From contig NC_064763.1 of assembly GCF_011397635.1 (NCBI RefSeq), positions 25,929,437 through 25,993,436 of the forward strand: a stretch of DNA of 64,000 nucleotides, written 5' to 3'. Source of the DNA: Epinephelus fuscoguttatus. Taxonomy: Eukaryota; Chordata; Actinopteri; Perciformes; Serranidae. This document shows positions 5,826 through 63,529 of the stretch, in pieces. Under the pieces are notes generated by a model that made no database searches, was not told the DNA's origin, and saw only the letters and a program-made list of their open reading frames with translations. The translations under genes were made by a program, and so were the position numbers. The first letter of the stretch is position 1. Each line of letters opens with the position of its first letter.

Positions 5826-6177
5826 AAAATCAAATTACTTCCTGTTCAGGAGATTGTTGAGCGACACGTTCAGGATAAAGACATTGTATGTGACATTCAC
5901 CTGCTCAGGTTGACGTTTGAGGGGCGTGCCACATGTGTCACCTATTGATCCTGCACGAGAAAGTCACAGTGAATTCACACAGCAGCAGCAGCCAGCCAGC
6001 CAACAGCTATAGAAACAAGTTTGTATCAGTAAAGAGAAGAAAATGCATGTTTAATGTTTGTGGTTTGGCTTTTAGTTCAAGGTTGGAATTTGCCCACAGG
6101 AAGTTATGTTCCGAGAAAATGAAGACAAAATTATGAAAGCTCCCGGCATTTGTTTTGATGGATCCTCATATCAGCAC

Positions 6178-7634
6178 ATGTTTGCCCCCTTTGTCAGGTA
6201 AAGTGGTGGTTTTGGTGGTGTGTCTAATTTTCCTTAATTACAAACCACAGCTCAGAAATCACAGCTGGAGCTGGTTTGAATCTATTATTTGCCAATATTT
6301 ACAGATAACTTGTATTTAATTCCCTTTTTTTACTTCCTTATTTAACTTTTAAAATATCTTGCTGTTATTTTTGTGAATTTGTTTGGCTTTGTTTGTGAAT
6401 ATACTGTTTGATCTTAAGGTCAAGTATTAAGTGAAGTTACTGATAATATTTCTAAGAAAGGATGTTCCTGAAATGCATCAGCAACACTGTGATGATAAAG
6501 TGATACTTAGATTATATCAAGGGGCTGGAGAAAACCTTCCCAGCAGGATGGCGTAGTGGAGTTTTCCTTTGCCAGAAACTTAAACAACACATCTGGATTT
6601 GTTACACAAGGCAACATCGTTCCTCTCAATCACAATCAGCTTTGTGGCTGCTCTTACACATCTTGTTCTTACATGTCAGGAGCTGACTTCACTCATTGTC
6701 TTCTGATACTCAATCAAGTATGTTTAAAGTCATTCATGTAATCTAGCAATACCTGTACCTTAGTAAAACTGCTGTTATTTGTCACTACAGCTCATAATAT
6801 TCTTTCATATTTTGGGACTTCCTCTTCTGCTCCCACCACCGAACTTCTTATACAGTACATGGGAACGGCGCAGCTTCATAACAGATGTAAACATCTCTAA
6901 AAAGCTCTCGCCTGAGTAAACATTTACTATTTGTTAATGGAAGCCAACATTTATTGTCTATACAGTGCAAAATGTACCACTCTCTATGCTGTTTGCACTT
7001 TCCTTTAGCTGTGATAAAGGTAATGTGTTTGCTCTGTTGTAATGAACTGTGATTACACTCAAAGGTGTGTCTGAGCAGGAATGTGTTCAAGAGTTTCATT
7101 CGTTATTCATCTCTTCAGGACGTTGTACGATATGGTTAATTGACTGAATGATGAGAACCAAAGAGAAAAACCTTTTAGCCATAATCACAGGAAAGGCCTT
7201 AAGCATTCATTGACGTGGGTGTCGTGGGAAGAGGTGGTTGTTATTAGCCTGAGAAGTTTTTTGTATGACTCACTCTTTTATCCCTTTGAAGTGCTGTGTA
7301 ACAATAAGTACCAAAAGGGCCAAAAGTCACAACAAAGAAGCTTAAAGCAGACATTTATACCTTTGAAAAAGTGTTTAAATGACTGTGTTTGTTATGTGAC
7401 AGAGTGAAGAGGCCAGGCTCACATGTCAAAGATCTACACTGGCTGTGCATACTTCTCCTCCTGGTCGTCCTTTTGGCAGGTACGGTATGACATCAGCTGT
7501 GACAGGTTAGAATTGTTTGAAGACAATGGAGTGGCAGCGTCTGTCGTCTGGTAGCCTTATCTGGACTGACAACTCTGCACCTCTATTTATAAGTCGCAAT
7601 GTCTGACATGCCAGTCATTCAGCATTCATCAAGT

Positions 7635-7674
<40 letters not shown>

Positions 7675-8288
7675 TGAATAAGTAAAATTTCCCTCCGAAT
7701 TTATATCTTAACCTGTTATTCTAGTCTGCTGCCTGTTTCCTTATCACATTTTACGATGCTACAACTTCTTGTGAAGGAAGTTGAGCACAATTCAGAAACA
7801 CTGGACAAGTGCCATTTATCCCTGAGCTTATAAAATAACTTTTGTTTTTAAGGAACAAAATTAAAACTAGAATAGAGCTGCAACAATTAGTCAGTTAAAG
7901 AATTAGTTGATTGACCGAAAATTAATTGTCAACAATTGTCATCATTTGTCAGAGCCTTCAGCTGTTCTGTGTATTTATTTTCCCTATTTCTTTAGCTATT
8001 ATTAACATACATCATGAGTCTCTAAAATCTCCAACAAATCAGTCAGCCGATGTGGGAATGAAACACAAGATAAAGTAATTCTTTACACCGATGTCTAGTG
8101 TCCACCATACAGCATTATGGCTGTGGGTCACAGTAAAACTGAAGTTGAAGTTTGAATTTTTCTTTGTCATTCGCTCTGTGCTGACAAAAACTAATTATGG
8201 TTTCTTCCTCCCCCAACAGGTCAGGCTTCCTGTAATGAGACCACTGCTTCCCCTCTTTCCAGTCCTACAACAAATGCACAGACTTCAG
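6178..8288 (+). CDS. adgrg2: adgrg2 exons 1-3: signal peptide and N-terminus
   Basis: Coding exons 6178-6197, 7403-7479 and 8220-8288. The joined product starts MFAPFVRVKR and has a hydrophobic core [14 protein letters not shown], then [14 protein letters not shown]. Splice sites: 6197 CAG/GTAAAG, acceptor GTGACAG before 7403, 7479 GCAG/GTACGG, acceptor CCAACAG before 8220, 8288 CAG/GTAAAC. Exon 1 is the least certain because no homology supports it; it is inferred from the open frame, the donor and the matching phase. The 5' UTR probably extends upstream of 6106. Confidence 0.6.
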
Positions 8289-11200
8289 GTAAACTTGCAA
8301 AGCCGACAGAATCATCCCACTCACTGCCATGTCAGGAGTACACTAATATTCCCTTAAGGAAGTTACAGTGGGTTCCTAGAAAAATAAGCAAAAGTTTATT
8401 TTCACAATGTGAGTAAGAGTGAATACTCTCATCTTAGGTTTCACTTCCTCCACAGTTATATCCTCAACTGTACGTAACAATGATAGAATCATGGTTTTAA
8501 TCATATCTATCAACCAAAATCTTTTCAAATGGAGGTCCCTGCAAAATCTTATCATATAGGGGTCTGTGACTTTATGTATATGAACTAATGTTAAAGGTTT
8601 TAGACATGATAAAGGTTAAGAGCCACTGGTTAAATCCACTGTATAATGATGCATCATATTGTTTCTGATGTAAGATTTTATCCCAAAGTAACTTACTTAA
8701 GTGTAAAGAAGCCCAAAATGGAAATATTGAGAATAAAATCTAATTCAAATTGTACTTAAGTAAGATATGTGACTGAATATAAGCTAGTTATTTTGCACAG
8801 CTGGAATCAGAGTAACTTTAAACATTCAACTGGAACTCCTTAAAACAGTACTGACATGCACATGTGTACCTGTCCTGACATATGGGCATTTTTAATGTAA
8901 GAGATGCGTCCTAGTCTGTGTAAAAACTGCATTGTGAAGTTCAGCTGATGCTAATTTAAGGCTGGAAAAAAATATGTAATTAAAATTTAAAATCAGTTTA
9001 CCAGTTATGAAGAGTAAAAGAGGCTGTGAAAACACCTGTATACTGACTCTGTGGTTCTAGGATTTTGATACGCTGCATTCATTTTGACTGTTTCTAAATC
9101 AGTCTCCTCAGCAACATTCTGTCTTTCCTTCTTATGACAGTATTTTACCATGTTGATGTCACCGTGGACGTCAGTGGACAGAAGGATGAATCAAACATCA
9201 CTGCTTGGGTATGTTGGGAAACTGGTTGTTGACTAATTGTTAATAGTAATATAAATCCTGTGATTACATATATTAAATATTGTGTTTTCCTTTTCTCAGC
9301 TTGAGGACGTGTTCCGAAACAACCTGCAGAGTTGCGTATCTCAGATCAACGAACAAACAACAGCCACACCTGCCTCTCCACACACTACATCTGCAAGCAC
9401 TTCAAATGTGACGACACTCATGACGCCAGCGACAGCAACACTGCAGACCTCTAATACAACTACAGCTGCAGCAAACACGACGTTACACAGCTACAGCACA
9501 ACACCGGCAGCAACGACATTAAGGAGCTCCAACACAACTACAACAGCAACAACAGCATCAGAAAGCTCCAACACAACTTCACCTGCAACAACAGCAGTAA
9601 AAGGCTCCAACACAACTACACCTGCAACAACAGCATTAAAAAGCTCCAACACAACTGCAACAACAGTGTTTAAAACCCCCACCATGACTATAGCTGCAAC
9701 AACAGCATTACAAAGCACCATCATAACTACACCTGCAACAACAACAGTATTAAAAAGCACCACCATGGCTACACCTGCAACAACAGCATCAAAAACCACC
9801 ACCATGGCTACAGCTGCAACAACAGCATTACAAAGCACCATCATAACTACACCTGCAACAACAGCGTCAAAAATCACCACCATGGCTACACCTGCAACAA
9901 CAGCATCAAAAACCACCACAATGGCTACAGCTGCAACAACAGCATTACAAAGCACCATCATAACTACACCTGCAACAACAGCGTCAAAAATCACCACAGT
10001 GGCTACAGCTGCAACAACAGCGTCAGAAACCACCACAGTGGCTACACCTGCAACAACAACAGCAGTAAAAAGCACCACCATGACTACTTTTGCCACAACA
10101 GCGTTAAAAACCACCACCAAAACTGCAACGGCAACAACAACAGCCTCAGAAACCATCAAGACAACTACTTTACCTGTCACCGGAGTGATCACTCAGACTG
10201 TTCTCAGTGAAGACCAGAACAGGCCAACAAAGAGACCACTTCCCTCTCAGGCAAACAAGGAGCGTGTAGCTCGTGAAATCAGGAACAGTGTGACACAAAC
10301 AAGGTATCACTGCAACAATTTCTTGTAAATAAATGAATGACTGAATGAAAGGGTGAATCTCCAGATAGATAGATAGATAGATACTTTATTCATCTCCTTG
10401 GGGAATTTCAGGTATCCAGTATCTCCTGAATCTCTCAGTCCTGCAGCGCAGTGAGACAAGTTGCTCACTGCAGCTGCTCCTCTGTCCGGCCAGTATGTTG
10501 TGGACAGGGTGGCTGACATTGTCCCTTATGCAGCTTATTCCAAGTGCGCCCCTCCACCACAGTTCCCAGTGAGTCTATTCCCCTGCCCAGCACTGAGCTG
10601 TCAGATAAAACCACAGTCAGATAAAACATGAACAGCACCATTAGCGTATGATGGCTAATGCTAACATTAGCCACCATACCTTACCGGTCATACCAGATCA
10701 AGTGAAACCTTTAGCAACAGAATATCTGGGTGTATTTTATAAAGCAGGAATATGAATTCCACTTTTTATTTGTAAGAGGGAAAATGTTCCTTGAGGCAGA
10801 AAGTGGTTTCTGGCACAACTTCACCGATTCACAAGGTGCATGGAGAGTGAGGAAACACTGAAGAATGTCAAAAGAGCTCCAGCAACACTTGTGGTATGGA
10901 AAGAAACTTTATTGACCGACGCGTTTCGGCTTGTGGCCTTCATCAGGGTCATCCTGATTGAAAGAGGGAAAATGTGAAATCTCTTCTTTCAAAATGTATA
11001 CAAACTGGCTTTAAATCAATCCTGTTTTTCATCAGTGTCGTCTCAATTTATTTTTCAGTGCGATCACCAATGACATAACAACTGGCCCGTATCAAGTAAG
11101 TTACCATTTAAATGTATCTATGGGTTACAGTGTGTGAATAGAGGGTTAATGAATATTAATTCATGTTCTAACAGGGAATAGAAGTTTCATGCGCCACAAA

Positions 11201-14200
11201 GACTGCAATAAGGTAAGTGGAATATCAAAAATGTTCAAATGGCTAAAACAAGCGTATAGAATCTGTCTGTTTTTAACAACAACCTTATACCTCAGAAAAA
11301 CCAACTGCTCCGTGACACTGCAGCTGAGGCATAGCATCCCCCCGTGTTGCATCCTCCGTACGCTTTGTGCAGCCAGTAAAGCTTCCTCTGACATCCATGT
11401 GGTGGGAAAAAAAGCAGATAGAATCCGTGAGTGTTGTATTATCTTAAATCCATAACTCACCTACCTAATGAGTTCCCATAATGCATTCAACTCTCTGTGT
11501 CATTGAACAGGTGGACTAGAAAATGAGTGCAATAGCAATATACAAGAGGAAAACAGTTGTGTTTATACTGGACAAGCCGGTGCAGCATGGTAAGATGTTT
11601 GTTTGAGTTTCCTCTTTTCAACCTCCCAGCTTATTCATGAAATTAACAAGAACATGGGACTTTTTTTTTTTCTTTCTTTTTTTTTTTTTTTGGAAAAGCA
11701 GTATTTGTAATTTGATCTTTAGGGTAAATATACAGTACGATCGAGTCATTGCTTTAAATTTTTGAAACATTTTATGAGTTTTTTTGGCGTGCTGCACACT
11801 AATTTTTCAACTGTCTTTAAATAGCCAAGAGTCTGAGTCAGCATATGTGATTCCTCAACGCAACACAACTCACTGTGATGAGGGTGAGCCCTGAACATTT
11901 CCCCTAAACATCTTCAGATAACAGAAAGTAAAGGAAGTACTCAACCCCTTGTCACTGATACCCACAACAGACATTAAGACATCATTATGTCCACATAACA
12001 TGAAGTCCAAGTAATTGTCACTTGAACTCGGACATTAATTCAAGAAATAATTCAACATTTGTAGCTTTCTTGGCAAGAGTTTGATAAGAAGATTGATACC
12101 ACTTTGATATCTGTACGGTAAATATGAAAATATGAAAAAATAAAACATTATGTGAAAAATAAGACGGGTTGAATACTGCAAAAAGAAGTTAAAATTTGCT
12201 GTTGCTGTGCTCACACTGAGATTTGAATACAGTAACTAACATGCTTTGACTGTTTCAGTAAAGGGGAATAACGTCTGCAACTGCTCTGCTTACTGCAGTG
12301 GAACTGGTGAGTATTTTATCACCTAACAAGACAACCAGATTATTATCTAAAGAGATATAAACTCATATTGATTCTTTGCTTTCAGATGCATACTACACTT
12401 TCGAGATTTTTATAAAAGATACCAGCAAGATGAACCTTACATATGTCTCGTCCCTGGTGAGTTTACATATTCTATGTGTGCATGTGTAAGTTTATATTGT
12501 AGTATTTGTCTTTAACTGTCAATTTTACAGCAATTATCTGTTGATGCATCAGACTCTAACCTCTTGAATCTTTACAGATTCATAAGCTTAAACAGCAACC
12601 AAACTGCTCTCCAAGTGCAGAGTGAGTTTTGCCATTCTACAAACATATAAAAATAAAATTGTACATGAATAAATCCAAATAAAAATAAATAACAATCTTT
12701 ATAATGTTACTTTGCAGAGTTCCATGTCCATTGTCCATCCTTGCATCTGAATACAAGGTAATCAGCAACCAAAGCGTGATCATATTGCCTGAATTTCCTG
12801 CTAAGATTATTTTGACTATTTGCTGGACTAATGCTGATCCAAATGATATCAGCCTTTCTGAGTCATGCATTTCATTGAGGAAACTGAAACTAAAATGCAT
12901 CAAGTACAATTTTATGGCTTTTGTGCAGAGTTTCTCCTTTTGTGACACAGTTTGTACATGAAATACAACATTTGGGACCAGTTACACAGAACATCTTAAG
13001 TTTTCTCCCTCAAGTATGACACCTGAGGCTTAATTTCTCCATAGCTGAGGGACTTACACAGTTGCACAGAATCCCTTTAAAGGTTTCCTTAAAGAAAAAC
13101 ATTAACTCATTTACAGCGTTGAAAGAGGTTTTACGGCGGTAAAAGTTTCCATGGAGATTGTTTGTTTGTTTGGACTCTCACAAAGTTGGCTTATAGTTAG
13201 ATATTGGAAAAATGACACAAGAAAAGAAGACAAGAAAACCATATTGGTCAGAGGAGGAAAAGATTATACTTCTGGGTGAATACAATCATAGAAAGCACAT
13301 TGTACAAAGTAAATTTGATCCCCAAATACCAGATTGTAGGAAGAAACTGCAACAAAAATTAATTCAGTCAAATCTATAGTGTAAACATAATTGTAGTTAT
13401 AATTATAGTTTTGTTTTTTTGTACAATTAAAACACAAAAAAGGCAAGAAAATTGAATAATGAAATACAGTGCAGGGAGAGGCCAAAAATCCCAGGGGGCT
13501 TACTTAAAGCCTCCACACGGGCCTTTTACAAAGTTATTAAGAACTCAAAGGTACAGAAAGATAAAGAACAATACATAAAATGATACAGGTGATAACAAAC
13601 TACTAATAACAAAATATGTTTGATTGCAACAAAAAAAACAGCAACAATAGTAAAAAGATAGAAAAATCTTAACCTAAGGTGTTTTGTGTAACCGGCACCT
13701 GGCACTAACTGACACTTTTCAAGCCCAAACAGCATTTTGGGGGACTTTTTTTTATCTTTTAATGCACAGAAGAATATTTTGTATCAAAAATACATACAAT
13801 TTTATTTTTTATTTTTTAACTATATTTTATATTTATTTATATTTTTATTTTTTTTTAATTATTTTAATGTGTTACTTCAACATAATCGCTTGAGATAGTT
13901 TGACTAAAATGAAAATTTCTTCTCAGGATGCCAATGTGACATGTGGACTCAATGAGGCAAAGTGAGTATAATCATATAGTAGCTTTGAAGGAACATATTT
14001 AATTTGCTGATACATTTGTGACTGACACCTGTGCACCTCTGATTTTTTTTTTTCAAAATTCTAGTCTTCAAAGCTGCAGTGTGATTTTAGTCTTTGCCCA
14101 TGAGGTTCCTATCTGTAATGTGTCGACAGCCGTGATCAATGTGTTTCAGTCTGTGAAAGAAATTAGTTTCAATGGACAGGTGACCCGAGCAGGTGTGTAT

Positions 14201-17200
14201 ATTTGATACAAGGAAACAAGTCAGTTCAGTTCATACAGTCAAGAATAACTGAGGGGAATCCTGTAACACTCCTTATTTGTGTTTTTTCTTTGTCACCCAG
14301 CAATTTGTGGAAATTCAGAAGTCAACAGCAACCCACTAAAATCGGAGTTCAAGTGGGACATAGTTTACCTAAAGCCTGCCTCCTTTTGTACAATAGAAGA
14401 GTCCAACCCCAACCTCACTTGGTTTGTATGATCTTCTTATGATCCCATCTATTGCAATATTTAAGAGCTGTTTGTATCGTAGCTGATCAACATGTAACAC
14501 CTGATGATGAACATTTCTAAACACTTTTACACAAGATCTTAATTTCTCTTTTTTATTTGTAGTCCAAATGGAGTAAATGTGCTTGTGCAGATGGATGAGC
14601 AGTGCAATCAGAGGGTTTTTACCACACCTAGCCCAAACGTGACAACCACACTCAGCCCAAACGTGACAACCACACTCAGCCCAAACGTGACAACCACACT
14701 CAGCCCAAATGTGACAACGGCAGAACCCAACACCACCACCTCGTCCGTCAATGTAACTTCTCCGCTGAACACAACTGTGACTGCACAACCAAACACCACC
14801 ACCCCGTCTGCGAATGTAACTTCATCCCCACTGAACACAACAGCTCAAGCCCTAAATGCCACCACCACCAGCTCTGCTGCTAATGTCACAGCGACAGGTT
14901 TGTTATCACCTCAGCAGCACTGTGTATAGCTCTGTTTCAGTCCTTACATCATTATTACATCATTTATAGTGTCCTCTTTAAATTGTGTTGACCACAGCTG
15001 ACAGCCAAGCCAACGCGCTGCTTGACCTGACCGGAGACGTGTCCAGTCTGAACTCCAGCCAGGTGGATCAGCTTGTGTCCCAGCTGGAGAATCTGTTGTC
15101 AGGCCCGACTGTCAGCCTGGCACTGGGAAACACCTCTGTCCGTATCGTCAGTAATCTATTGGGTGCTTCTCCTGAGGTGCTGTCTGACTCCTCCAACAGG
15201 TTACAGATTAATTTATCTATAATTCTCTATTATGTACAGTAAAAAAAGAAATTCAATAGTATAACTCAGAGGTTCCTGACTTTTTTTTTTTTTTGCACCT
15301 GTTGCAAGCGGTAATTGTCCTCCACACCTGATTACTGAACATACTGAAATGTAAAGTTAGACCACTAGAGATTGTATAAAAGTAATGGACAAAGTCACCA
15401 TGAAGTCATCTACCCTATTGCTCAGTGGACTCCTATTTGGAGGCCTTGAGTTTACCACTTAGACTGTCGCCATCTTGGATTTTTGGAGGCAGAAGTTATA
15501 TTTGGACAAGAGGGTGGAGCTAACCCTGATGCTAGCTGCTACTTTGTTAGCATGGTGCATTTACAGTCTATGGTTGACTGTGATAATGTTAATGCTGATG
15601 CTAATTTTCATCAGCAAAAAAAGCAGGCTTAAACCATTAAAACCAAATATACTTACTGGAAAAAATGGACTTCTTAGAGCAGTGGTCAGCAACGGTAACT
15701 ATCAAAAGAGCCATTCTGAGGCCTAGTTCAGGGCCACGGTCCAGAGGTTGGGAACCACTAGAGTAACTGAATTATCTCTAATATCATAATCACTCATATT
15801 TTGCACAATATCCGTTCATTTCTTTTTCTTTCTTTGTTTTTCACCAGGATCATAGGGATTGTTGATACAGTGGGGTTGAAGCTGGTCCTTGATGGAGAGG
15901 CTCAGACCCTCTTGTCCCCAGCTGTGGCTTTGTCTGTGAAACCAGCAGATGGCAGCAACTTTCAGGAAACATTCTTCTCCATCTCAGACCCCAATGATGT
16001 CCAGGTACGACATGAGCAGTCCACTTTATTTCATCCGCATCAAGTGTTGTATAGGTAATACATCACAATATTTGTGATGCTGTTTAGATGAGTGTGATCC
16101 TGTGAGACGCTGGTTATTCTAAAGCAGATGTTCGTGTTTCAGAGTTTAGAGATTAGTAACTAAGTACTCTAGCCAAGTGCTGTGTGCAATTTTAGAAAAC
16201 TTGTACATAACTTAAGCATTTCCATTTTATGCTACTTAATCCACTACATTTCAGAGGGAAAGACAATACAGTGTTAGTTTAGATTAAATCTGTGGTTTTT
16301 GTCTTGTGACCAATTACAAAAATGCAACGTCCTGTTTGGGGCCCTTGTTTTCAGCTCCAACACAAGGGCATTTCCCATCTAAATTTTTCCGATGGAAAAT
16401 ACCAAAGTATGACTACTTGTGCAGCAAAAAAAAAAAAAAAACATCTTCTTTCCTCTGTGACCTTTTGAAGGGGACCTGACCCCTAGGTTGGGAAACACTG
16501 GACTTAACTGTTTGTAAAGTAGATAAAGCAGCTCCTCCTCAACTTGTAAATGCTGCCCATATGTTGATGCACCTAAAGCACAATTTGGATTTTAAGTGCA
16601 AAACTTTTTGTTGATTTTTGTTTTTAGATTGTTGCAAAACATTTACTTAGTTAACGGATCTGAGTACTTCTTCCACAACTGAAACTTAAGCTCCTGCAGC
16701 CACATTTTGGAACAGGCAGTAAGGAGTAAAACAATCTGGACCCACTTAAAACTATCTGATATTTGTTAAAGTATTGTTTGCAAGAGGATGAGTAATCCCA
16801 GAGGCATTAACGGACTCATTGACAGCAAACAGACATTTTTCACACCAGAAACGTTGACGTGTCACAGCATGAAACACACAGGAGTAATTAATGACAGGAA
16901 TTGTTTATGGCTGCTTTCCATTGATGTGTTCCAGCTCCAGCACCTTGGTATTTTGCTGGCAAGGCCTTGTTATTGGTATTTGTTCCATTTGCATTTTTCC
17001 TGTCCTGGAAAAGTGTCTTTATATGTCCTGCTGCACGTGCAATGATTAGAAATAGTTCTCCAACATAACCTGAACATGGAATTCCTTGTAAACAATAAAT
17101 TCAGTTAATTTAATTTGAAACACTAATCTATGTCTGGAAAAAAATACCTGCAATAATACATAATCTTGACGTTAGCTGCATTCAGTATATTTCAGAAATG

Positions 17201-20200
17201 TGGAAAGTGGTTTCTGCTTCTGTTGCATGGAAACATTCAATTAGGTGAACTAGGTCAGCCTACTTCCCTTCATCACAACGACACGACTTTTTTAATATGA
17301 TTTCTGCGGGTACATCCCTGGATTACACTTGTTTTTGTACATGTGGCACCCAAGAAGAAATGGGTTGAGCTATTACAGCTCAGCTATTGCAAACAATGAT
17401 CTCTGACAGATTGGTGTCAGTTGCCCCAAATAAAAAAGTGGTATTAAAACTCTATGATGATAAAATCTAGTCGTTAAGCCTGTGTATTTCTGTTCATGTC
17501 CCACGTGTGTTGCAGGTTCGTGGGGATCCCAGGCTCAGAAGAAGTGTGAGAAAAGGCTCCTCCATACCTCAGGGCTCCATCAGGCTGCCCCCCACCCTCA
17601 CACAGAGTTTGACCTCTGAGCAACAGCAGCTGGTCTCCAGAGTCCAGTTCAATTTCTACCAGGAGAGCACAGTGTACCAGGTCTATGCATTTAACAAATG
17701 TCACATTCAAAAGAACTCTGACACACTTGGCTTTACTACAATACAGAAATGTGTTGCTGTAATCATCTGTGTTTTTAATTTTACACCCCTGAATTAGCGC
17801 TCTAACAGAAACTCATGGACTATATTTTAAATTACATATGGCAACACTGTCTTTACAAACTAATAACCTGTGTTCACTCTAAATGGTCATGCAGGACAGA
17901 TCTTTGGGAAAACGCAAACTCAATAGTGGGATCCTGGGAGCGAGTGTGGCCAACCTGTCAATCAAAGAACTGCAGGACGACGTTGTAATTCACCTGAAGA
18001 ACATGGAGCCTGTTCCAGTGAGTCAGTTTAAAAAAATGTTTTTTTAAGGACATGGGATATTTACTAACAGACTTAAATCTATAGACAAAGGTAAAGCGGC
18101 ACAGGTAGCACACAGCCACATCAAATTTGAATTCTCTCTGGGGAAAACAAATATAAGACAAAGGTGAAATTTTCATGTGTTTTAGCAGATTAAATACAGA
18201 CAGGCCACAAACATGCCGCAAGATTAATAGTGGTCTTTTGTCTCGTGTCTTTTCCCAAACTACAGGCTAATTTTGTGGCTACTTGTGTTTTCTGGGACTT
18301 TACATTAAATGGTAAGTTTTCCAACTGTGTCAATCAGAAATAAGTAAAAATAAATCAAGATAAAAATATGATTCATCCATGTTTTCTCTCGGCAGACGGA
18401 TCAGGTGGTTGGAATCCGAGAGGCTGTTCTGTCCGAAACAGCACTGACAATGAGACAATATGTGGCTGCAATCATTTAACTAGTTTTGCTATACTGCTGG
18501 TGAGATGATCATCATATTTCTATATTTTCATGCATCCTTTCGTTGGGTAAACACTTTTCCACTCTGCTGTAACTTTACCTTGTTTCTTTGCTTTCCCACA
18601 GGACCTCTCCAGAGAGACACTCACCAGTCGTGTGCAGGCCACCATCCTCACCTTTATCACATATATTGGCTGTGGAATCTCTGCCATCTTCCTCTCCGTC
18701 ACCCTCCTCACATACTTGTCTTTTGGGTGAGTGTCGAGAGCCATAAGATAGATTACACACATCCAGCTTTTTATAAATACCACTTAAGTAGCATGCATTG
18801 TTGTCTGCAGTGGCTAATGCTGTTATTTGGCATTTACATGTCCTGAATGAAAGGAAAGACTGCTCCTTAAGTGAGCTGTGCAGTTTTTATAACATGCTGG
18901 AGGGTGTTCCTGTCCCGAGCAGCATAGTTTTCATACCAGACTGTGACTGAACTGGTGAGGACACGCGACTGTACATCTGTAAAAGTTGCTGAGGGTAACG
19001 GTTGGCATGCCAAATTTCCTCAGCTTTCTTAAGATGTAGAGTCGCTGCTAGGATTTCTTGATGATCTGCCATGTGTTGTGAAACCAGGTGAGATCCTCGC
19101 TGATGTGGGTACCAAGAAATTTAAAGGTTCTCACCCTCTGTTCCTCTGTCTCACCCATGTGTAGTGGCATGTGCTGCCCTTTACCCCTCCTAGTTACCAT
19201 CTCCTTGGTCTTATCTGCATTTGGGGAGAGATTATTTGATAGCAGTTCACATACAGGTATGATGATCTTGGCTTTGTCAGTAATATAGACAATGCTAACA
19301 CATTATAAAAAGTGTTTTCAACTTTTTAAATAACAGTTTCATGGCAGTTCATCTTGTGATGTTGAACAACATTCTGCCTGAGCAACTGTTACGCACAGTG
19401 TAGCATAGTATAATAGTGAGACATTATCAAATGTGAAAGCGGCCTTCTCGATTATCCTGACCACCAAACAAACACAACATATATAAAAATTGATAACAGA
19501 TCTATATTATTTTATCCCTTAGGCTGCCATTTATTACTTCTGGAGATCAAAAGTGGATCTGGTTTGCAATGCAGTATTAAGAACGTGCAAAATTCAGGAA
19601 AACTAGAAAGAGGCAGATCTTTTTTTCACAGCACATTTTACAGTAGATGCATTGTTCACTGAGAAGAGTCCACTGAGATGCGTCATGTTGTCTAAATCAT
19701 TTGAACATTGCAGGAAGTTGCGGAAGGACATTCCATCCAAAATCCTAATCCAGCTGTGCATGGCTCTGCTGCTGCTGAACCTGGTCTTTCTGGTGGATGC
19801 GTGGCTGGCGCTCTACCCTGACGCTGTGGGCCTCTGCATCTCCACTGCCTGGTTCCTTCATTACTTCCTGCTGGTCACCTTCACCTGGATGGGACTTGAG
19901 GCTGTCCACATGTACGTGGCCCTCGTGAAAGTCTTCAATAGCCACGTATCACGCTACATGCTGAAGTTCTCGGTGGTCGGCTGGGGCGTCCCGATGATCG
20001 TGGTCATTATTGTCATTGCGATTGACAAGGATAACTACGGTCTTGTCTCCTACGGAAAGTTTTCCGATGGCACCAGTGATGACTTGTGAGTCTTCTGACA
20101 GATGCCTTACATGCACATTATTCTACACACTATTAGACACATGAAATAAAACCTGCACAAAATGAAAAACTAACCTTTTAATTCTCATCCATGTCTTCTC

Positions 20201-22178
20201 CCACAGCTGCTGGCTGAAAAACGACATTGCTTTCTATGTGGCAGTGGTGGCATATTTCTGCGTAATTTTCCTCTTCAACCTCGCCATGTTTGTGGTGGTG
20301 TTGGTCCAGCTGTGTCGGATAAAGAGGCAGAACCCTCACAATGCTCAGCACCGCACCACGCTGCAGGATGTGCGCAGTGTGGCAGGGATAACTGTCCTCC
20401 TGGGCCTCACTTGGGGTTTTGCCTTTTTTGCCTGGGGGCCCCTTAACCTGCCGTTCATGTACCTCTTTGCCATCTTTAACTCCTTGCAAGGTGAGTTGAC
20501 TTTTTTTTAAACAATTGTGAACTACTGCAACTACAAGAGGTCCTGGAGCATACAGTCATAAATGTGCACACACAATATGAGGCTGATTGCTCCGGTAGTT
20601 TGTGAGATAAACTGGGAACAGACAGATACACACACTCACACATACAACCAAACGCTTGATCTCCTCAAAACTTATATCTGGCAGAATGATGGCTGGGGCC
20701 CTGATCACACAGAAAGCGTTTTAGCAGCTGGAGCTCCTTTTTGTAATTGTTTTTCTTTGAACTTTTCGAGCTGAAAAACTTCATCTCGGTGCGGAAAAAC
20801 TTTATCTCTTTTTTCGTCAGCTTTTTTCCCATTGTTCAATTGGATGAACTGAGAAGCAGGCCTTCTGTGGCAGCCACAACAACAAGTTTACAGTTGGCAA
20901 ACAATGGAGGACAAACTGGTGGTAGCAGTTGCAGAGCTATACAACCTGACGATAGACAGCAGGTTGTCAAACTGCCCCCGAGTCATCCTAAAATATGTCT
21001 GGAAACAGCTAGCATGGAGGCTAAGCTCCTGGACCAACTGGTGGTACTCCCTGTGACCCCCCCTCTTTTTTAGGGTCTCATGTACCCACAAAGACCTCTG
21101 TTTCCCTGTGCCCAACAAACTATTTACTGACAGCCTCTCACCCTCAGCTAGAGCTAGAGCACCTACCCTCTACTCAGTGCCATGGGCCTCGCATTTTGCA
21201 ACCTGCAAAACGCTTTCTGTGTGATCAGGGCCTAAAACTACAATAATAGCACCCAAGTTATTAATCGTAATAATCCTTTATTAAGTTTTGGTCTGGTAGC
21301 GCTCATCTTTCACACAAAATGTGTAGAAAAGTAGACCAAAAACACTAGCAGAATAAACTTAGACACACTGTGTATGCATGTGATATACATACAAAGGCTC
21401 TTTCTGTTTTGCAGGTTTCTTTATATTTGTGTTCTACTGTGCGGTGAAAGAAAACGTGAGAAGGCAATGGAGGACGTACCTGTGCTGCGGCAAAATGAGA
21501 CTAGCAGAGAACTCAGGTTAGAGATGATCACGACTCTGCCAACTTGGCTGAAAACCTTAACATGTTTGGTCTTTTTAAGCTAGTCCTTCAAAGTAACTGA
21601 TTCAAGTGCATCAGTTGCCTGTTGGTATTTTATTACACAATGATTATGTTACAATTTTTGTTTTGTGGGATTTCTTTTAACAGAATGGAGCCGCACTGCA
21701 ACACAGAAGACTGTGAAGAAGTCATCAATGACCAAACTGACATCTCTTAATTCCTCAAAGTCCTCCCAGTCCAATAACTCATCCAGCTCCACCTCTTTCC
21801 TCGTCAGTGACTCTTCAGAGCAGATGAATGGCATTGGTAAGTGAAGACATTCAGCCACTGATTGTGCCAGTAATTCATACACGATATTTTAATTTTAGTA
21901 GTAATCGCCCTGACAAACTATGTTAAAAACAGATTTTATTGCTGCAGCTCTTTAAATATGTTGACACCCCTGGTCTTGGCAGATTCTGTGCTGACAGTGG
22001 CCAGGAGCCCACCGTCATATAGCCTAGGCGTGCATTTGCAAAAATGGAAATAACGCAGTAATGCTGTGTTACAGGCAGCCCGTTTGAAGACAGAATAATC
22101 ACAGCAGATGAAGACCCCAGTATGGACGTGGTCCTCAATGAGATCAACAGACAGTACAGAGACCAACAAGCCTCCTGA
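6178..22178 (+). CDS. adgrg2: Adhesion G protein-coupled receptor G2 (GPR64-like)
   Basis: Thirty coding exons joined in frame give about 1,446 residues. Order: signal peptide (about 1-36), two cysteine-bearing modules with Thr-rich mucin-like regions (about 56-801), a GAIN-type region (about 802-1055), a GPS cleavage motif CGCNHLTSF (H1059-L1060/T1061), seven membrane segments and a Ser-rich cytoplasmic tail. From [16 protein letters not shown] onward the 7TM region follows mammalian ADGRG2 almost residue for residue ([43 protein letters not shown]). The family is self-cleaved at the GPS and activated by the exposed stalk. Mammalian ADGRG2 acts in the male efferent ducts; a fish role is not implied by sequence. 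At about 1,450 residues it is longer than the human protein (about 1,017), because of the duplicated and mucin-like ectodomain. The start is uncertain: in-frame ATGs at 6106, 6133 and 6178; 6178 gives the most normal signal peptide. Confidence 0.9.
7637..7669 (+). repeat. (CA)n microsatellite
   Basis: About 16 CA dinucleotides in the adgrg2 intron after the signal-peptide exon. Confidence 0.95.
9141..11883 (+). CDS. adgrg2: adgrg2 exons 4-10: ectodomain module, first copy
   Basis: Exons 9141-9208, 9300-10303, 11059-11095, 11175-11212, 11296-11426, 11511-11589 and 11825-11883, with start/end phases 1/0, 0/2, 2/0, 0/2, 2/1, 1/2, 2/1. Landmarks are [38 protein letters not shown] and NTTHCDE. 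The 1,004-bp second exon carries a long Thr-rich insertion. The same exon order, phases and cysteine spacing recur at 12386-14897, so this is one half of an intragenic duplication. Mammalian ADGRG2, as I remember it, has a single such cysteine-rich module. Confidence 0.75.
9378..10170 (+). repeat. Thr-rich coding repeats (13-residue unit) in adgrg2
   Basis: Within the 1,004-bp exon the protein is a run of imperfect 13-residue units of the form [13 protein letters not shown] (39 bp). In the middle, three units form a higher-order repeat: CAGCATTACAAAGCACC recurs near 9703, 9823 and 9940, spacings of 120 and 117 bp. The composition (Thr, Ser, Ala, Pro, with NTT sequons early on) is that of a mucin-like O-glycosylated stalk. 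The long open frame on the opposite strand here is only a by-product of the repetitive codons. Confidence 0.9.
10361..10620. repeat. Retroelement-like remnant with ATAG tail
   Basis: (GATA)n at 10364-10382 is followed by CTTTATTCATCTCCTTGGGG, a terminal motif common to dispersed fish retroelement remnants, then non-coding text. It lies in an adgrg2 intron. The exact family was not identified. Confidence 0.4.
10890..10955. repeat. Dispersed repeat fragment (GACGCGTTTCGGC motif)
   Basis: GACGCGTTTCGGCTTGTGG then CCTTCATCAGGGTCATCCTG is a recurrent motif at the ends of dispersed elements in fish genomes. Only a short piece is visible, in an adgrg2 intron. Confidence 0.35.
12035..12130. repeat. 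Dispersed teleost repeat fragment
   Basis: AAGAAATAATTCAACATTTG, TTTCTTGGCAAGAGTTTGAT and AAGATTGATACCACTTTGAT follow each other as in a widespread percomorph repeat. It is the same family as 1525-1618 and probably as the CTAAGCTAAGCTAAG fragments near 38720-38755. Confidence 0.5.
12259..12306 (+). CDS. adgrg2: adgrg2 exon 11: short cysteine-rich linker
   Basis: A 48-bp symmetrical (phase 1/1) exon encoding [16 protein letters not shown], between acceptor GTTTCAG and donor G/GTGAGT. It separates the two copies of the duplicated module and has no counterpart in the other copy. Because it is a multiple of three it could be skipped without breaking the frame. Confidence 0.7.
12386..14897 (+). 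CDS. adgrg2: adgrg2 exons 12-18: ectodomain module, second copy
   Basis: Exons 12386-12456, 12578-12621, 12718-12757, 13927-13961, 14065-14192, 14301-14421 and 14563-14897, with phases 1/0, 0/2, 2/0, 0/2, 2/1, 1/2, 2/1, identical in order to exons 4-10. Landmarks are [38 protein letters not shown] and VLVQMDEQC. Exon sizes also track the first copy (71 vs 68, 40 vs 37, 35 vs 38, 128 vs 131). In this copy the last exon has expanded to 335 bp with Thr/Pro-rich repeats. Confidence 0.75.
12974..13699. mobile_element. Harbinger-like element carrying a Myb/SANT fragment
   Basis: The left end GGGACCAGTTACACAGAACA and the inverted right end GGTGCCGGTTACACAAAACA form imperfect terminal inverted repeats (about 16 of 20). 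The element lies in the long adgrg2 intron between exons 12718-12757 and 13927-13961. It carries the short open frame at 13212-13379. No DDE transposase is present. Confidence 0.6.
13212..13379 (+). pseudogene. Truncated Myb/SANT-like (Harbinger accessory) protein
   Basis: A 55-residue open frame beginning [20 protein letters not shown] and continuing with LLGEY and IVQSKF. This is the tryptophan-containing SANT/Myb-type DNA-binding start found in the accessory protein of Harbinger transposons and related host proteins. Normal proteins continue well beyond this point, so it is a truncated relic rather than a host gene. Confidence 0.55.
14622..14717 (+). repeat. Four 24-bp coding repeats (LSPNVTTT) in adgrg2
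   Basis: Four near-identical copies of an eight-codon unit encoding LSPNVTTT. Each unit provides an N-V-T glycosylation sequon as well as Thr residues. The last unit differs by a single C-to-T change in the Asn codon. Confidence 0.95.
14998..18499 (+). CDS. adgrg2: adgrg2 exons 19-24: GAIN-type region and GPS
   Basis: Exons 14998-15199, 15848-16004, 17516-17680, 17895-18017, 18266-18311 and 18396-18499 (residues about 802-1067). Signature pieces are [66 protein letters not shown] and SFAILL. The paired tryptophans and cysteines ahead of HLT are the GPS signature; cleavage is expected between L1060 and T1061, leaving TSFAILL as the tethered agonist. Introns hold repeats but no other gene. Confidence 0.9.
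15390..15580. repeat. Dispersed teleost repeat fragment
   Basis: Contains TTTGGAGGCCTTGAGTTTAC, GTCGCCATCTTGGATTTTTG and GGTGGAGCTAACCCTGATGC in that order, a combination common in percomorph genomes. It lies in an adgrg2 intron. Class unknown to me. Confidence 0.5.
15681..15762. mobile_element. Very short hAT-type remnant
   Basis: AGCAGTGGTCAGCAAC..ACTATCAAAAGAGCC on the left and GGTTGGGAACCACTAG on the right are hAT-like termini only about 80 bp apart, so nearly the whole interior is gone. The left end resembles the right end of the element at 3869-4540. Confidence 0.45.
16170..16683. repeat. Dispersed teleost repeat, related to 30240-30510
   Basis: Begins with TTAAGCATTTCCATTTTATG..CCACTACATTTCAGAGGG and ends with AACGGATCTGAGTACTTCTT and CCACAACTG. 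The same style (ACTTTTTACTCCACTACATT) is seen at 30240-30510. Non-coding, in an adgrg2 intron. Confidence 0.45.
18602..20490 (+). CDS. adgrg2: adgrg2 exons 25-27: transmembrane core
   Basis: Exons 18602-18726, 19714-20085 and 20207-20490. The first holds TM1 ([18 protein letters not shown]). The second holds TM2 to TM4 ([56 protein letters not shown]). The third holds TM5, TM6 and most of TM7 ([53 protein letters not shown]). These are typical class B2 GPCR segments and the strongest evidence for the ADGRG2 call. Confidence 0.95.
18885..19250 (-). mobile_element. LINE fragment, C-terminal end of reverse transcriptase ORF
   Basis: Read on the minus strand with one frame change, it gives [49 protein letters not shown] and [12 protein letters not shown]. 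This is the well-known end of the reverse transcriptase ORF of fish non-LTR retrotransposons. A stop and a frameshift show it is dead. It lies in the adgrg2 intron between TM1 and TM2 exons. Confidence 0.75.
20697..21232 (-). mobile_element. Deleted Harbinger transposon with perfect terminal inverted repeats
   Basis: GGCCCTGATCACACAGAAAG at 20697 continues to 20722 and is matched base for base by the inverted copy at 21207-21232 (26 bp, then further similarity after a 1-bp indel). Between them, on the minus strand, lies the N-terminal part of a transposase. The perfect repeats suggest a fairly recent insertion into the adgrg2 intron between exons 27 and 28. No clear 3-bp target duplication was identified. 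Confidence 0.75.
20888..21118 (-). pseudogene. Harbinger transposase N-terminal fragment
   Basis: A 76-codon frame with [40 protein letters not shown] and QFDNLLSIV. The W-V-H..R..GE[YF]..L..EL..D...F..YFRM....FD.LL pattern is the standard start of PIF/Harbinger transposases. The catalytic DDE domain is absent because the element is internally deleted. Confidence 0.75.
21415..22178 (+). CDS. adgrg2: adgrg2 exons 28-30: end of TM7 and cytoplasmic tail
   Basis: Exons 21415-21516, 21684-21836 and 22075-22178 (stop TGA at 22176-22178). They encode [39 protein letters not shown], a Ser-rich stretch ([20 protein letters not shown]) and a C-terminus ending RDQQAS. The first 50 residues follow mammalian ADGRG2 closely; the tail is shorter. 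The 3' UTR follows, but no canonical AATAAA was found in the next few hundred bases. Confidence 0.9.
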
Positions 22179-25509: not shown

Positions 25510-28500
25510 TTACACCTTCCAGATGTTGTAGAAAACCCATCTGATTCAATAGAATTAAGGAAACGCAACAACATATGACAGCATGCAAAAATGTATTGTA
25601 CTTCTGTCCATTATCTCTATCATTTATAATAACACTGTGCTGTCAGAGGATCAGACAGGACAGTTATACTTACCAAAACTACAAAAATTAGATCCAAATT
25701 GTAATAAAACAGTAAAATAATATATTTTTCTAAAAGTTGTTTTTGGATTTATGCACTCCAAAATAATAAATGGGATAAGAAATACCTATTTAAGCTACAT
25801 AACACATCAAAGATCTTTGAACTGATGAAAGGATACTGCTCCAAGTAGGAGGGCACGCACACCACCTCTTTGGAGAACTTCACAGGACACGAGAGCTTCC
25901 TCAGCTGCTCCTCGTACAGACACAGAGCCTCTGTCATGTTCTCGGCGTTACCCTTGTAAATGGAAGCAGAAAAATAAATGTCATGAGACACACACTGTTG
26001 CCAATTTTTTTTTTTTCAACCATTACTGGGTTATAAGCAGAAGTGATGTGTTGCAATACTCAACCACAATATAGTGGAAAAAAAGTGATGCTGCCATTCT
26101 CTCCCTGACTGATATCCAACTGGTTTAATTGTACTAATGTTTTCTCCCTGCAATATTTCCTGGCCAGATATCCTGTTTTGACAGGCAACTCATCAAATTA
26201 AGGAAGCACGTTCCTCTGAAAGTGCAGTTTTATAGGGGGTTTAAAGTTAAGTCTCACATGCAAACATTTTCAGTGAACGTAAGAGCTGACTGGGGCATCT
26301 CTGGTATATCAGCAGTTTGCACTAAACACTCGCCAGTTACTACACGCAACTCACCTGTGTAAGATATTTCCCCGAGGGATGCAGGACTTTCATCGACAGA
26401 TCCAAGATGAGACGCAGGAACTCCCATGTTGAATCTACGACAGGCAGTTGGATAGGTTCAGACACAAGCATTGCACTTATATAACACCACAGAGAATAAG
26501 TAAACAAAAATATACAATATTTTAAAAGAAATACTGTACCTTCTTCTGGCTCTGTGGAAATTGGGATTGCAGTCAGGTCATTGATTACGTAATCAAATGT
26601 CTTTCCGTCTGAGACATACTTCTTCAGCACAGGGACACAGTCCTCAACTAGAACCTGTAATGCAGGAGACAAAAAAATCCACTCAGTTTAGACTGAAGTT
26701 TCTTTTGTTTGGGGAATTTGCTTATACATAACAGGACGCACATGCATGTGTGACACAGTACAGAGTTGTACCAACAGGCTAAGACATGCTGCAAGGCACC
26801 GCAAGCTACTAAACATGGCTGTAAACAATGCTGGATTTAAAATACTGTTTTGTAAAATGTTTTATGTTGACGTAAATGCACTCAATATGTTTGTTAGACC
26901 CTGTTTGTTTACAGAAAAACCCCACAGGGTTGATAACCGCCTGTGTGATACCGGTTATTTACTGAACCTACAATGAACATATGAATATTCATTCAGCACT
27001 CACTTGGTAACAGTCTCCCTTCAGGTTGTCGAGGACATGGCCGCAAGTTTTCCTCATGTGCTTTTTGCACGCGTCTATCACCTTCTGGTCAATGTGCACA
27101 CGCCGTTAAGGAAACATCATTCAGGTGCTGATGTGCAACTATACGTATTAATAAAATGTTGTGAGAAAAAACTACATTGCCTTATTGGGAAAAAAAAAAC
27201 AAAGTCACAATACAGAAATAAAAGTTCAGCAGAACATGTAAAGGATATATCCAACATGGTGATCATCTTTGGCTTTTGTTTGACCATCTCAGACAGGATG
27301 CCTCCGTCGCCTCCTCCCAAAATCAGCACCTCTTTTCCAGCAAAATTCTCTCTTCCGCTGCCCATGATGGCTTTGGTGTAGGCCAAATCACTCTCTGCCA
27401 GGTCTGCAAGGTACAGTAATCATTTAGACACTAAAATACTTGATCAGTTATAATAAATGACACAAACTAACAAGTTGAATTTAGTACATTATATTTTAAA
27501 GTGGATTAGGAACCAGTGCTGCCTGCCCTGTTATCTGATGATACTCAGTTTTATGACGTTTCAGTGACTGGGGAGTACTAAATTACAATCAACATTATGT
27601 ATATAAATACAAAATATGAGTAACTGTATGCTGTTATGTAAAATATGTTGTTGTTGTATATACTTACTTAAGTCATCGTCCAGTATTAGGACATTTCCAT
27701 ACTGGTTTGAGTGCAAAATCTTAATGTTTTGGTATGGAGAATCTTCTTCGTACACCATCTGGTCCATGTCGTACTCAACCAGTCTGCCATCAGTCGTGGG
27801 CCAGTATCTGTCAACCTCTGCTCCTCGTAGGAGGGCTGGAAGCCTGGGGATGAATGGTTACCGACACAATTAATCAACATGCAAGATGGAAAAATCGCCT
27901 TTCCATAACATCAAAGCAATGAATCTCCAGAAACTTACCTCTTAATCCTTGTAATATTGTCTTTTAGGGTTTCCTTTAGCTTTGTTTCCAGTGCATTTAA
28001 AAGCTGTGGAAAAACAAACAGAGTCAGAAACATCATAAAAGCTTAACTGCACAACAGTTTTGGTGACCTAGAGGGATACTCTCCTGTGCTACATGGGCGG
28101 CACACTAACAGCAAAACACATAAGCAGTAAACAAGGCAGCAGCCAAATCCTTTCACTGTGCTCTTGCGTGCATCTACTGGTGCTCCAGAGCAATTAGGGG
28201 CATGGTTTGGTATTTCTAGAGATCTACCAAATGTGCCGCCTGTGTGAAAGTGCATGTTTTGGCCCAAGGCAAGTGAAAAACATGTGCCGGCAACACTGGT
28301 CCTCATCTTATGTGTCTGTCACATATCCAAAGCTATTTAACTTCTTACTTTTATCATGTCCTTGAAATATTTTTGGCACAGATTTTTACGTCTCCTGGAT
28401 AAACAGCACAAGGCGGTTTACAGTGCAGTGAATTTAATGAGTGCTATAAGAAGTTCATCCCGGGACAAGCCTTAATGATACCAACATCATGTGACATGCT

Positions 28501-36822: not shown

Positions 36823-39800
36823 TTAGAAAGTAAATCCACCACAATCAAAAGCATCAAAATCAGAATCTGCCACTTCAAAGTCAAAGCTGTTAAAATGAGG
36901 GGAGTCGAGTGCAGGGCTGCCGGTGTGGTACGCTCCTGCTGGTCCCATGCCAGAGAAATCCGTGTTGATTGGCAGGTCAGGAGCTTTGGCTTCCAGATTA
37001 GGGAGCGAGCATGCGCCTAGGTAACCCATGGCAGAGGAAGCAGCAGCCCCTCCCATCAGCAGATAAACCGCCCTCACTGCTTGGGCATTACTGATAGTGC
37101 CGTGGCGCAGACACCCTGGTGAATGTACGCCTCCTTTGTAATACTTTGTGCGAGGAGAACTCCTGCCTGTTGGGATTGAGTGGTTTAAAAAACAAACAAA
37201 CAAACACGGTCACTTGTTTGACTAGATTCTTTACTCTCGCTTTGCATGAAAAACTGTTACAGACAAACAACACGCCCTACACTCACCTTTCTCCCGCGGG
37301 GAAGCACAAGTCATAGGCCCCGGGGAAGGTGCCTCTGTGTCGCTGACAGGTGGAGTTGGTGGATCTTTGTCGAGGATTTGCTCAGGCACCAGATCTCGGA
37401 GAGTAATTCGTGGTGGTGGCACCTGGTGTCGCTTACAAGGACTGAGAGGTGATGAGAGACTCTGTAGGGGGTAAAATAAGAATCCAGAAAACATATTTTG
37501 CATTATAAAAGTGATGCTTATATTAAAACATTACAAACATTTCTATCTACAGTTTTAGCCATGCTAGCAGCCCAGCTTTGGGAAAGGCAGTCAGTCTAAA
37601 TGTCCGCTGCTGTGACACAGACCAAAATATCTCAACAGTTATGGGATGGATTGGCATGAAAGTTGGTACAGGCATTCATGTCCCCCTCACGATGATCCTT
37701 TAATGAGCATCATCATCAGGTCGAATTTCAATTTAACCAATGCTGTAGTTTATGACCAAATACCTGCAAAACATCAATCAGTATCTGCATTATGCAGCTT
37801 TTGCTTTGATTGTATGTGAAACTGCTGTCATGAAAACACAAGCTGGGGCATGGCCTCAGTGAGTAACAGACCTGTTTCTGTATTGTGCATGCCCAGTTGT
37901 GCTTAACAGCCTGTTAAACTTCCGTCTCAGAGAGTCTCTGAGTCAAATCTTTCATGAGCACACACCCACTGAGGCAAAAGAGTCGTTCATGAATCGGTTA
38001 GCTAATGGCGGGTGAACGACATGAACCAGGGTACTTCACATCAGCATGGCAGCAGTGTCGCTGTAAGCATTACTGTAATGCTGATGTTAGCATTGTGCAG
38101 CTTTACAGAGCTGCTAGCTCGGCTGTAGACTTGGTAAGGTTTACACATTTTCCAACGCAAATACCTTATTAAATCATTAACTCACCTGTTTAACTTTTTT
38201 CAGCACATTCAGCCATTGACTAAAAAGGGACAAACACATTTGTTATTACCTACTGTAATCATCCTAACATCAATTCATCAGTTCAAGTGCATTCCAGTGA
38301 AACAACCAGGTATGTAGCAGGAGTGGAATGTGCAGTATGGTGCCTGCCTGTCACTCTTGCACACTTCCTGCTGTACTGGGTGTAAGCTGAGATGTCCTAT
38401 TTGAGATGAAAGGTATGCAGGAGAGGAAAATACGGTAAATGAGAATCTGGAGTGGCACTGGCCTTTTGTTCTTGACAAACATGCATAAAGACTAGAAACA
38501 GGGGGGACAGCTAACCTGGGTCGTCTGTCCAAAGCTTAAAAAAAATCCACCCACCAGCACCTCTCCAGCTCACTAATCAGGCTATCGTATTATACCTCTC
38601 TTTTATTCCCTACAGGAGGAGGAGGAGGGTGAAAATGACAAGTTGTGGTTTTAGGAGGGTTATGTGCCAGACTAATTTTTGGATGACTTCCTGGACTGTT
38701 TCTATACTTCTGTGTAGCCTGGCTTTATGCTAAGCTAAGCTAAGCTAAGATAAGCTAACTGGCTGCAGGCTGTTGCATCATATAGTGCTCCAGGGATGAT
38801 GTTTTTCAAAAAGCCTATGGGATTTCTCCATTGGATTTTGGATTATTGCAGAAAATAAGCTCTGAGGTGAACAAACTATTATAATACTTAGATGTTTTGT
38901 TCAGTAAGATACAAATAAACACCACTTTTATGATTACTGAAGCCTAAATGCAATTGACAGACGTAAAAAGATAACGTTAGGCTATAAACAAACCACGCAA
39001 CGGTTGAATGACCTACCATCACCACCATAAAAAGACTGTAAAATTGTGTTCGGTGCGGCTCGGTGTGATGACGTTCTGTAGTCTCATTTAGCCACTTGTT
39101 ATCAACCGCCTTTTTAAAGCCACACCTAAGCTTTGAAGTTCACAATTGGGGTGTTTGCTGATGTGTTTTATGTCGTAGAACAAAACATGTACGTTTCTTC
39201 AGCTTGTGTTAATCACAGACCTCATCTCAGGTGTCTAATCAAACACCCATTCAAAAAGACCAATTGCCTTTGAGACAAGGGAATCATTTGTGGTACAATG
39301 CTAACTCATTTGTGGGTTTTAGGGCTAATTTCTGGGGCATAAGTTCAAAGATCAAACATGTATTTGCGAGTGAGTGTTATTTTCTCATCGAACTCATTGC
39401 AAAAATGTAAAAAATCTTATTTCCCCAAATACTGGAACTATTCAGCTGAGTAACTGGTGGCACATTTGTGAAATTGCACCACAAAACTTTAGCTGGTTTT
39501 AACATGTGTCCATCATTTCACAGGCAAAGTCATTATACACGGTGAGCACCAGACCTGCAGTCTGCAGGGGTCTCAGTCATCAGCAGCAGGTACTTGCTCT
39601 GGGGGAGGATCAGGGCAAAGCAGCAATCCCTACTTCCACCGGAGGGCAACTTAGGCAGGTCTAGGATCTCTTTGCCTTCCACGATTGCCTCACAGCTGCT
39701 CTGCAACAGCACCAGCTGGTCGGGGGGAGATGAGGCATCGTGGCACACAAGGAGACTGCCCTCAGCTGTCAGGAGCAGAAATCTCTTCTTCCACTGTTTG

Positions 39801-40716
39801 AAAATAAATCCACCTGGATAAGAGAAGCAGGTTATTCTGTGATAAACATTTCCAATCATAAGCACGAAACACCTAAAGCTTATTGACAGTATTAAGTGTG
39901 GTCACAGTGATCATGATAGCAGTGGGAGCAGGGTACAGCTGGATTAAACACTCAGTCATTCTATCATCTCCGCAGATTAGAGGCAGTCAGGTGGTTGGAG
40001 GATCAAGGGGCTGCGGATGTGGCGCTCAACCAATCGGGGAATGTTGACTGTGATTTAGCATCATCACACGCACACATCTGGATCTACTCATTCTGTGTGC
40101 ATACAGTGAAAAAACACATGGACACACTAAACAGAAATACAATCCCAAAATCTAGTGAAATAAGTCTGAAAAGGAGCAAGTGAGATTTAACCTGGTCTAT
40201 GAATCTTTTTTTGTGTATTTTCAGACACATTTTCAGATTCTTGTTATCAGGGTACGTATTATATATTTTTGAAATAATCTATCCATCCAATACCCTTAGA
40301 GGAGAAAATCATTATGATTCTCCTCTCAAAATCCTGCTTGGTCTCGGAAGCATTGCTAACTCTAACACTCTTAATATCACAAAATGGTATGGGTCCTTTT
40401 GGCAAAATGTTCTAAAGAATTTGGGGAAACACTAGGATGCAAAATGCATTAATCATCCTACCTATCAATTATTCAGCATCGTCATACCTAAATGCAGAAT
40501 CCAATTCCAAATCCTGCTATGCTCTTATTCTAACAGGACAAAATATAAACAAGAACATTTGTAAATCACCATAAAATCTACTGTGAACTGCAAAACTATC
40601 CTGTAGGAGGTTATAAGAGAGGCAGTCATTTTAGCTTACAAAATATAACCACAGCTGTGGAGGATAAACTCACCATACATCCTTAGCACGCCATGGTGGA
40701 TCCCCGAGACGCTCAT
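36823..40716 (-). CDS. Unidentified small PH-domain protein
   Basis: Five exons in frame give 284 residues: 40674-40716, 39555-39813, 38186-38219, 37287-37461 and 36823-37166. Residues about 10-113 read as a pleckstrin homology domain: GVLRMYGGFIFKQWKKRFLL, then TAEGSLLVCHD, an acidic mid part, CCFALILPQSKYLLLMTETP and the closing helix CSQWLNVLKKVK with its invariant Trp. PH domains usually bind phosphoinositides or proteins at membranes; the KQWKKRF basic strand fits that. The rest is Pro/Ser-rich (RDLVPEQILDKDPPTPPVSD) and ends with a Gly/Ala-rich patch (LLMGGAAASSAMGYLGAC) and an acidic Phe/Asp-rich tail (FDFEVADSDFDAFDCG). I do not recognise the family. The exon 2 donor CAG/GTCTGG is weak but is the only junction that restores the PH helix. 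Confidence 0.7.
37556..38135. repeat. Dispersed teleost repeat in an intron
   Basis: Contains AAATATCTCAACAGTTATGG, GATGGATTGGCATGAAAG and, at the far end, GCTGATGTTAGCATTGTGC and ACAGAGCTGCTAGC. The pair of ends is that of a very common percomorph interspersed repeat. Class unknown to me. Confidence 0.6.
38480..38780. repeat. Dispersed teleost repeat with CTAAG array
   Basis: CTAGAAACAGGGGGGACAGC, AATCCACCCACCAGCACCTC and CTGTGTAGCCTGGCTTTATG followed by GCTAAGCTAAGCTAAGCTAA. These phrases belong to one widespread percomorph repeat, here in two pieces. Confidence 0.55.
38790..39230 (-). repeat. Dispersed repeat, inverted partner of 34247-34670
   Basis: The inverted text shares TTTTGTTCTACGACATAAAA, GATAACAAGTGGC, GCATTTAGGCTTCAGTAATC and GCTTATTTTCTGCAATAATC with the copy at 34247-34670. 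It lies in the intron between the second and third exons of the PH-domain gene. Confidence 0.7.

Positions 40717-42649: not shown

Positions 42650-63529
<20,880 letters not shown>

Follow-up and report, generated by a model that had tools for sequence, protein, structure and literature searches.

Among adhesion G protein-coupled receptors (GPCRs), ADGRF1, ADGRF5, ADGRG6, and ADGRG4 are named as bearing SEA domains, and in the available passages of the cited papers ADGRG2 is not credited with one (PMC6954182, PMC10687090). In zebrafish Gpr126 (ADGRG6), the GAIN domain is preceded by a disulfide loop (C369-C375) followed by SEA and HormR domains (PMC6954182), as a single unit behind CUB and PTX domains. 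The ADGRG4/GPR112 architecture is given as SEA-HormR-GAIN, with one SEA domain without an autoproteolysis motif, a long mucin-like stalk, and an N-terminal pentraxin domain (PMC10687090, PMC13197933). Here, we analyzed a 64,000-nucleotide stretch of the Epinephelus fuscoguttatus genome (GCF_011397635.1, NC_064763.1; the window, with positions counted from its start) holding an adgrg2 gene with two homologous extracellular units, A and B, ahead of the GAIN region. The frame is kept across both units, and a second adgrg2 gene of this genome also carries the two, to the extent that its exons could be located.

Duplication of an extracellular cassette in adgrg2

The window gene comprises 30 coding exons at 6133-22178 on the forward strand (1461 codons, 0 internal stops). 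Its borders were derived by hand and checked by script, every intron is GT-AG, and the start codon in exon 1 was chosen, not evidence-based. The top PDB match of the protein (phmmer) is mouse ADGRG2 (7wui_R, E 1.1e-193), with ADGRG6 and ADGRG4 behind, which identifies it as the ADGRG2 orthologue. Across the whole protein, the only Pfam families detected are GPS (E 7.9e-17) and 7tm_2 (E 1.8e-52); the GPS motif CNHLTSF (residues 1072-1078) has the cleavable H-X-S/T form.

The initial annotation had proposed an intragenic tandem duplication of a cysteine-bearing module, based on a common phase series, similar exon sizes, and aligned landmarks in exons 4-10 and 12-18. In the re-derived gene model the two series agree exactly, the units are homologous in sequence, and their ends are frame-neutral (class 1-1), so the duplication stands. 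Domain duplication via phase-1 units is a well-known route. As the unit starts and ends in phase 1, a copy can be added without breaking the frame. The proposed seven-exon unit with a separating linker exon is, by contrast, doubtful. The supposed linker, exon 11 (E11), is assigned to unit B, because it is 1/1 like E3, occupies the same position in the two fish genes, and specifies a C-x5-C loop, a feature that mouse also shows at this position. The repeat unit therefore probably has eight exons, E3-E10 (8220-11883) and E11-E18 (12259-14897), with phase-1 introns on either side of each copy.

Mouse ADGRG2/GPR64 (7wui_R) shares the orthologous GAIN and seven-transmembrane (7TM) regions and has one module with a C-x5-C loop and a cysteine triplet spaced by 11 and 13 residues, as in fish unit A. 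As the initial annotation had stated for mammalian ADGRG2, the mouse unit is single; it also lacks the long Thr-rich insert seen inside the fish module.

The genome of the window (1.047 Gb; the window lies at C12:25929437-25993436) yielded 57 matches in a 7TM search. Besides the second adgrg2 gene on contig C21, for which ADGRG2 is the top PDB match, these searches pointed to an adgrg6 gene on C11 (peptide pieces match Gpr126 SEA-HormR, E 1.3e-26), an adgrg4-like gene on C9 (ADGRG4 at E 4e-41, narrowly before ADGRG6 at E 1.5e-39), and another at C12:32.4 Mb, assigned by resemblance only. The C21 gene was scanned for exons with the required phases. E4' and E7'-E18' were found in order, together with a tentative E3', and E7'-E18' join into 1212 stop-free codons; E5' and E6' were not convincingly found under strict and relaxed splice rules. 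In a shuffled-peptide control covering 12 of these exons (200 shuffles; E3' and E18' outside it), the scores of E7', E8', E11', E16', and E17' were matched by at most 1 of 200 shuffles and that of E4' by 6, while 38 to 192 shuffles reached those of E9', E10', E12', E13', E14', and E15'. Among candidates, nine of the 12 ranked top, two second, and one fifth; E9' ranks fifth in the scan with E9 and was adopted from that with E17. Of the 12 cysteines in unit B, all 12 align when the window and C21 genes are compared. The weak unit B exons are backed by order, frame, and cysteines; for E9' and E10' the backing consists of order, frame, and the HormR-like cysteines.

Taken together, the best explanation, to which we assign a probability of about 85%, is that a cassette of adgrg2, probably of eight exons bounded by phase-1 introns, was tandemly duplicated ahead of the GAIN domain; the duplicated cassette would code for the C-x5-C loop, followed by a SEA-like domain and a HormR-like segment with four cysteines. 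Two observations speak against it: E3 and E11 are too unlike in sequence to raise the A-B alignment score, and the SEA_Gpr126 profile detects adgrg6 yet misses the adgrg2 units, which lowered the weight given to this explanation.

Age of the duplication and alternative explanations

Since the second adgrg2 gene appears to carry both units, the doubling is probably old and no quirk of one gene; it would predate the split of the window and C21 genes. These two likely derive from the teleost genome duplication (PMC8584163), and the zebrafish repertoire, as given in the available text, includes gpr64a and gpr64b, with coding sequences often incomplete at the 5' end (PMC4335454). A still greater age, with duplication before the fish-tetrapod split and loss of one unit in mammals instead of gain in fish, is possible, though we do not favor it. 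Pair scores of the mouse unit against the fish units favor A and the loop favors B, but this mixed resemblance is also expected if mouse represents the undivided ancestor and the fish units changed in different parts. A six-row tree with long branches gave no decision: p-AU values were 0.294 and 0.297, and the relevant forks had bootstrap values of 61 and 75.

Alternative use of the units as cassettes, with most transcripts skipping one of them so that the protein usually has a single module, is unlikely. Skipping of E3-E10, E11-E18, or E11 alone preserves the frame, because phase-1 introns flank each unit; ADGRG6 is described as undergoing alternative splicing immediately ahead of the SEA domain (PMC6954182), and N-terminal domain variability is listed for mouse Adgrg2 (PMC6667449). 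Against this, both paralogues retain both units, with every unit B cysteine aligned. A chance origin of the common phases and slight similarity, without any duplication, in a gene rich in small exons is highly improbable: a phase run of 10 was attained in 262 of 20000 simulations of a Markov control and the alignment of window unit A with C21 unit B is not significant, but the sequence comparison of the units already largely refutes it.

Flanking genes were also compared. Between the window flanks and two 20-kb stretches beside the C21 gene (C21:12293501-12313500 and 12343501-12363500), only short repeat-like matches are common. The second stretch contains a Patched-family gene (Patched and sterol-sensing Pfam matches) adjoining the C21 adgrg2 gene. 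Minus-strand reading frames in the window encode spermine synthase (about 27117-27857, Pfam), a PH-domain protein (39533-39901, Pfam), and an EF-hand protein (about 48203-49765, Pfam) that we take to be ryanodine-receptor-like; the nearest paralogue of the latter is on C5, and 0 of 9 matches fall on C21. SMS and PTCHD1 presumably lie near ADGRG2 on human X.

Domain character of the units

Judging from position, exon layout, and the published ADGRG4 and ADGRG6 architecture, each unit may be composed of a loop, a SEA-like domain, and a HormR-like segment. The same order, followed by GAIN, is found in ADGRG6/GPR126 (6v55_A; PMC6954182), and four pieces found in the C11 adgrg6 gene have the phases 1/0, 0/2, 2/1, and 1/2 where adgrg2 has E4/E12, E5/E13, E8/E16, and E9/E17, these phases having been imposed in the scan; the Gpr126 match indicates that these exons are nevertheless real. 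The strand-2 exon of adgrg6 and adgrg4, as well as most of the adgrg4 unit on C9, was not convincingly found under strict and relaxed splice rules, and a six-frame C11 match resembling adgrg6 strand 2 was rejected because usable splice sites are absent.

At the sequence level, ADGRG6 and the adgrg2 units do not match. Pfam scans of the units gave no SEA match up to E 10 and a few unrelated sub-threshold matches, such as FOG1-like_PR and KH_1; in the positive control, SEA_Gpr126 detected both the adgrg6 gene present in this genome (E 4.5e-20) and its zebrafish counterpart Gpr126 (E 2e-29). No relevant PDB match was obtained for unit B or for fish-only profiles, and a profile that matched mouse was rejected as evidence because the mouse sequence was included in it. 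Membership is thus not claimed: either the adgrg2 units are SEA domains that have diverged strongly, or a different element occupies that place.

The HormR pattern consists of four cysteines and a Trp. Four cysteines are present in window units A and B and in C21 unit B, and five in C21 unit A; the Trp is found in the two B segments only. The unit B segment has no HRM match, a weak negative, as the adgrg4 piece reaches only E 0.0041 (below the cut-off) and the adgrg6 piece gives none. ADGRF1 and ADGRF5 likewise have a SEA domain within the ectodomain, theirs with a GSVVV-type cleavage motif (PMC6954182), whereas 0 of 5 sequences (four fish units and mouse) have a motif of the GSVVV or furin type in the strand 2-3 loop.

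Exons of the repeat units and of the downstream regions of the window adgrg2 gene (forward strand; strands and helices are from inferred secondary structure)
Exon	Position	Strand	Phases	Length (nucleotides)	Unit or region	Content	Basis
3	8220..8288	+	1/1	69	A (probable first exon)	one Cys kept (ASCNETTAS)	phase partner of exon 11; sequence score gives no support
4	9141..9208	+	1/0	68	A	SEA-like strand 1, start of helix 1	gene model
5	9300..10303	+	0/2	1004	A	end of helix 1, 289-residue Thr-rich insert	gene model
6	11059..11095	+	2/0	37	A		gene model
7	11175..11212	+	0/2	38	A	strand 2, Cys446	gene model
8	11296..11426	+	2/1	131	A	strand 3, helix 3, strand 4, Cys457, Cys470	gene model
9	11511..11589	+	1/2	79	A	HormR-like, first exon	gene model
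10	11825..11883	+	2/1	59	A	HormR-like, second exon	gene model
11	12259..12306	+	1/1	48	B (first exon)	C-x-C-x3-C loop (overall C-x5-C)	gene model, mouse comparison, C21 gene
12	12386..12456	+	1/0	71	B		gene model
13	12578..12621	+	0/2	44	B		gene model
14	12718..12757	+	2/0	40	B		gene model
15	13927..13961	+	0/2	35	B	strand 2, Cys616	gene model
16	14065..14192	+	2/1	128	B	strand 3, helix 3, strand 4, Cys626, Cys639	gene model
17	14301..14421	+	1/2	121	B	HormR-like, first exon, with Trp	gene model
18	14563..14897	+	2/1	335	B	HormR-like, second exon; Thr/Asn-rich stalk of about 90 residues	gene model
19-24	14998..18499	+			GAIN region	GPS motif	gene model, Pfam GPS
25-30	18602..22178	+			7TM	7TM and C-terminal tail of ADGRG2	gene model, Pfam 7tm_2, PDB match

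Within the GAIN region, RGDPRLRR (residues 938-945; exon 21, 17516-17680) combines RGD with a furin-like R-x-R-R site. At roughly this place SRSKR is found in the C21 gene, and mouse ADGRG2 has no counterpart in the alignments made.

Possible role of the doubled ectodomain

Adhesion GPCRs are thought to turn ectodomain force or binding into tethered-agonist exposure. Doubling of the module alters stalk length, as the initial annotation had stated and as follows directly from the sequence; the ligand surface, which it also expected to change, may differ as well. In the window gene the Thr-rich stretches have 289 and about 90 residues, and in the C21 gene the stretch encoded by E18' has about 920. 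This 2804-nucleotide exon (C21:12321443-12324246, minus strand) encodes a tail with 30% Thr and 100 N-glycosylation sequons, a stalk far longer than that of the window gene. Exon 5 of the window gene holds a coding 39/117-nucleotide minisatellite of about 16 copies (9501-10139), and the Thr-rich insert of unit A may therefore differ in length among individuals.

In the proposed mechanism, the doubled cassette together with the Thr-rich and glycan-rich stretches would lengthen the stalk and hold the binding surface farther from the membrane. Lacking known cleavage motifs, and with cysteines flanking the strand 2-3 loop that may staple it, the SEA-like units could act as force-bearing spacers and as a binding surface, passing a pull to the self-cleaving GAIN domain with no shedding of the units. 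Skipping one unit, or E11 alone, would keep the frame and might provide a regulatory option. The complete scenario, in which ADGRG2 of ray-finned fish acquired a double loop-SEA-HormR ectodomain through an old duplication, with two non-shedding mechanical spacers in series before GAIN and with flanking cysteines holding the loop at which other SEA domains are cut, is speculative, and we consider it rather doubtful.

The initial annotation knew of no earlier description of a doubled ADGRG2 module, and none appears among the matches listed in the openly licensed PMC literature, at the level of titles, abstract openings, and some passages; as far as searched, the two-module layout is undescribed for any adhesion GPCR. 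ADGRG2 may follow the loop-SEA-HormR-GAIN plan of ADGRG6 and ADGRG4. With one module before GAIN in mouse and two in fish, the receptor offers a natural experiment on length and module number. ADGRG2 marks tuft cells in mouse (PMC8105302), and in catfish skin it has been used to mark brush cells (PMC10613986), so similar cell types may allow a comparison of the two architectures.
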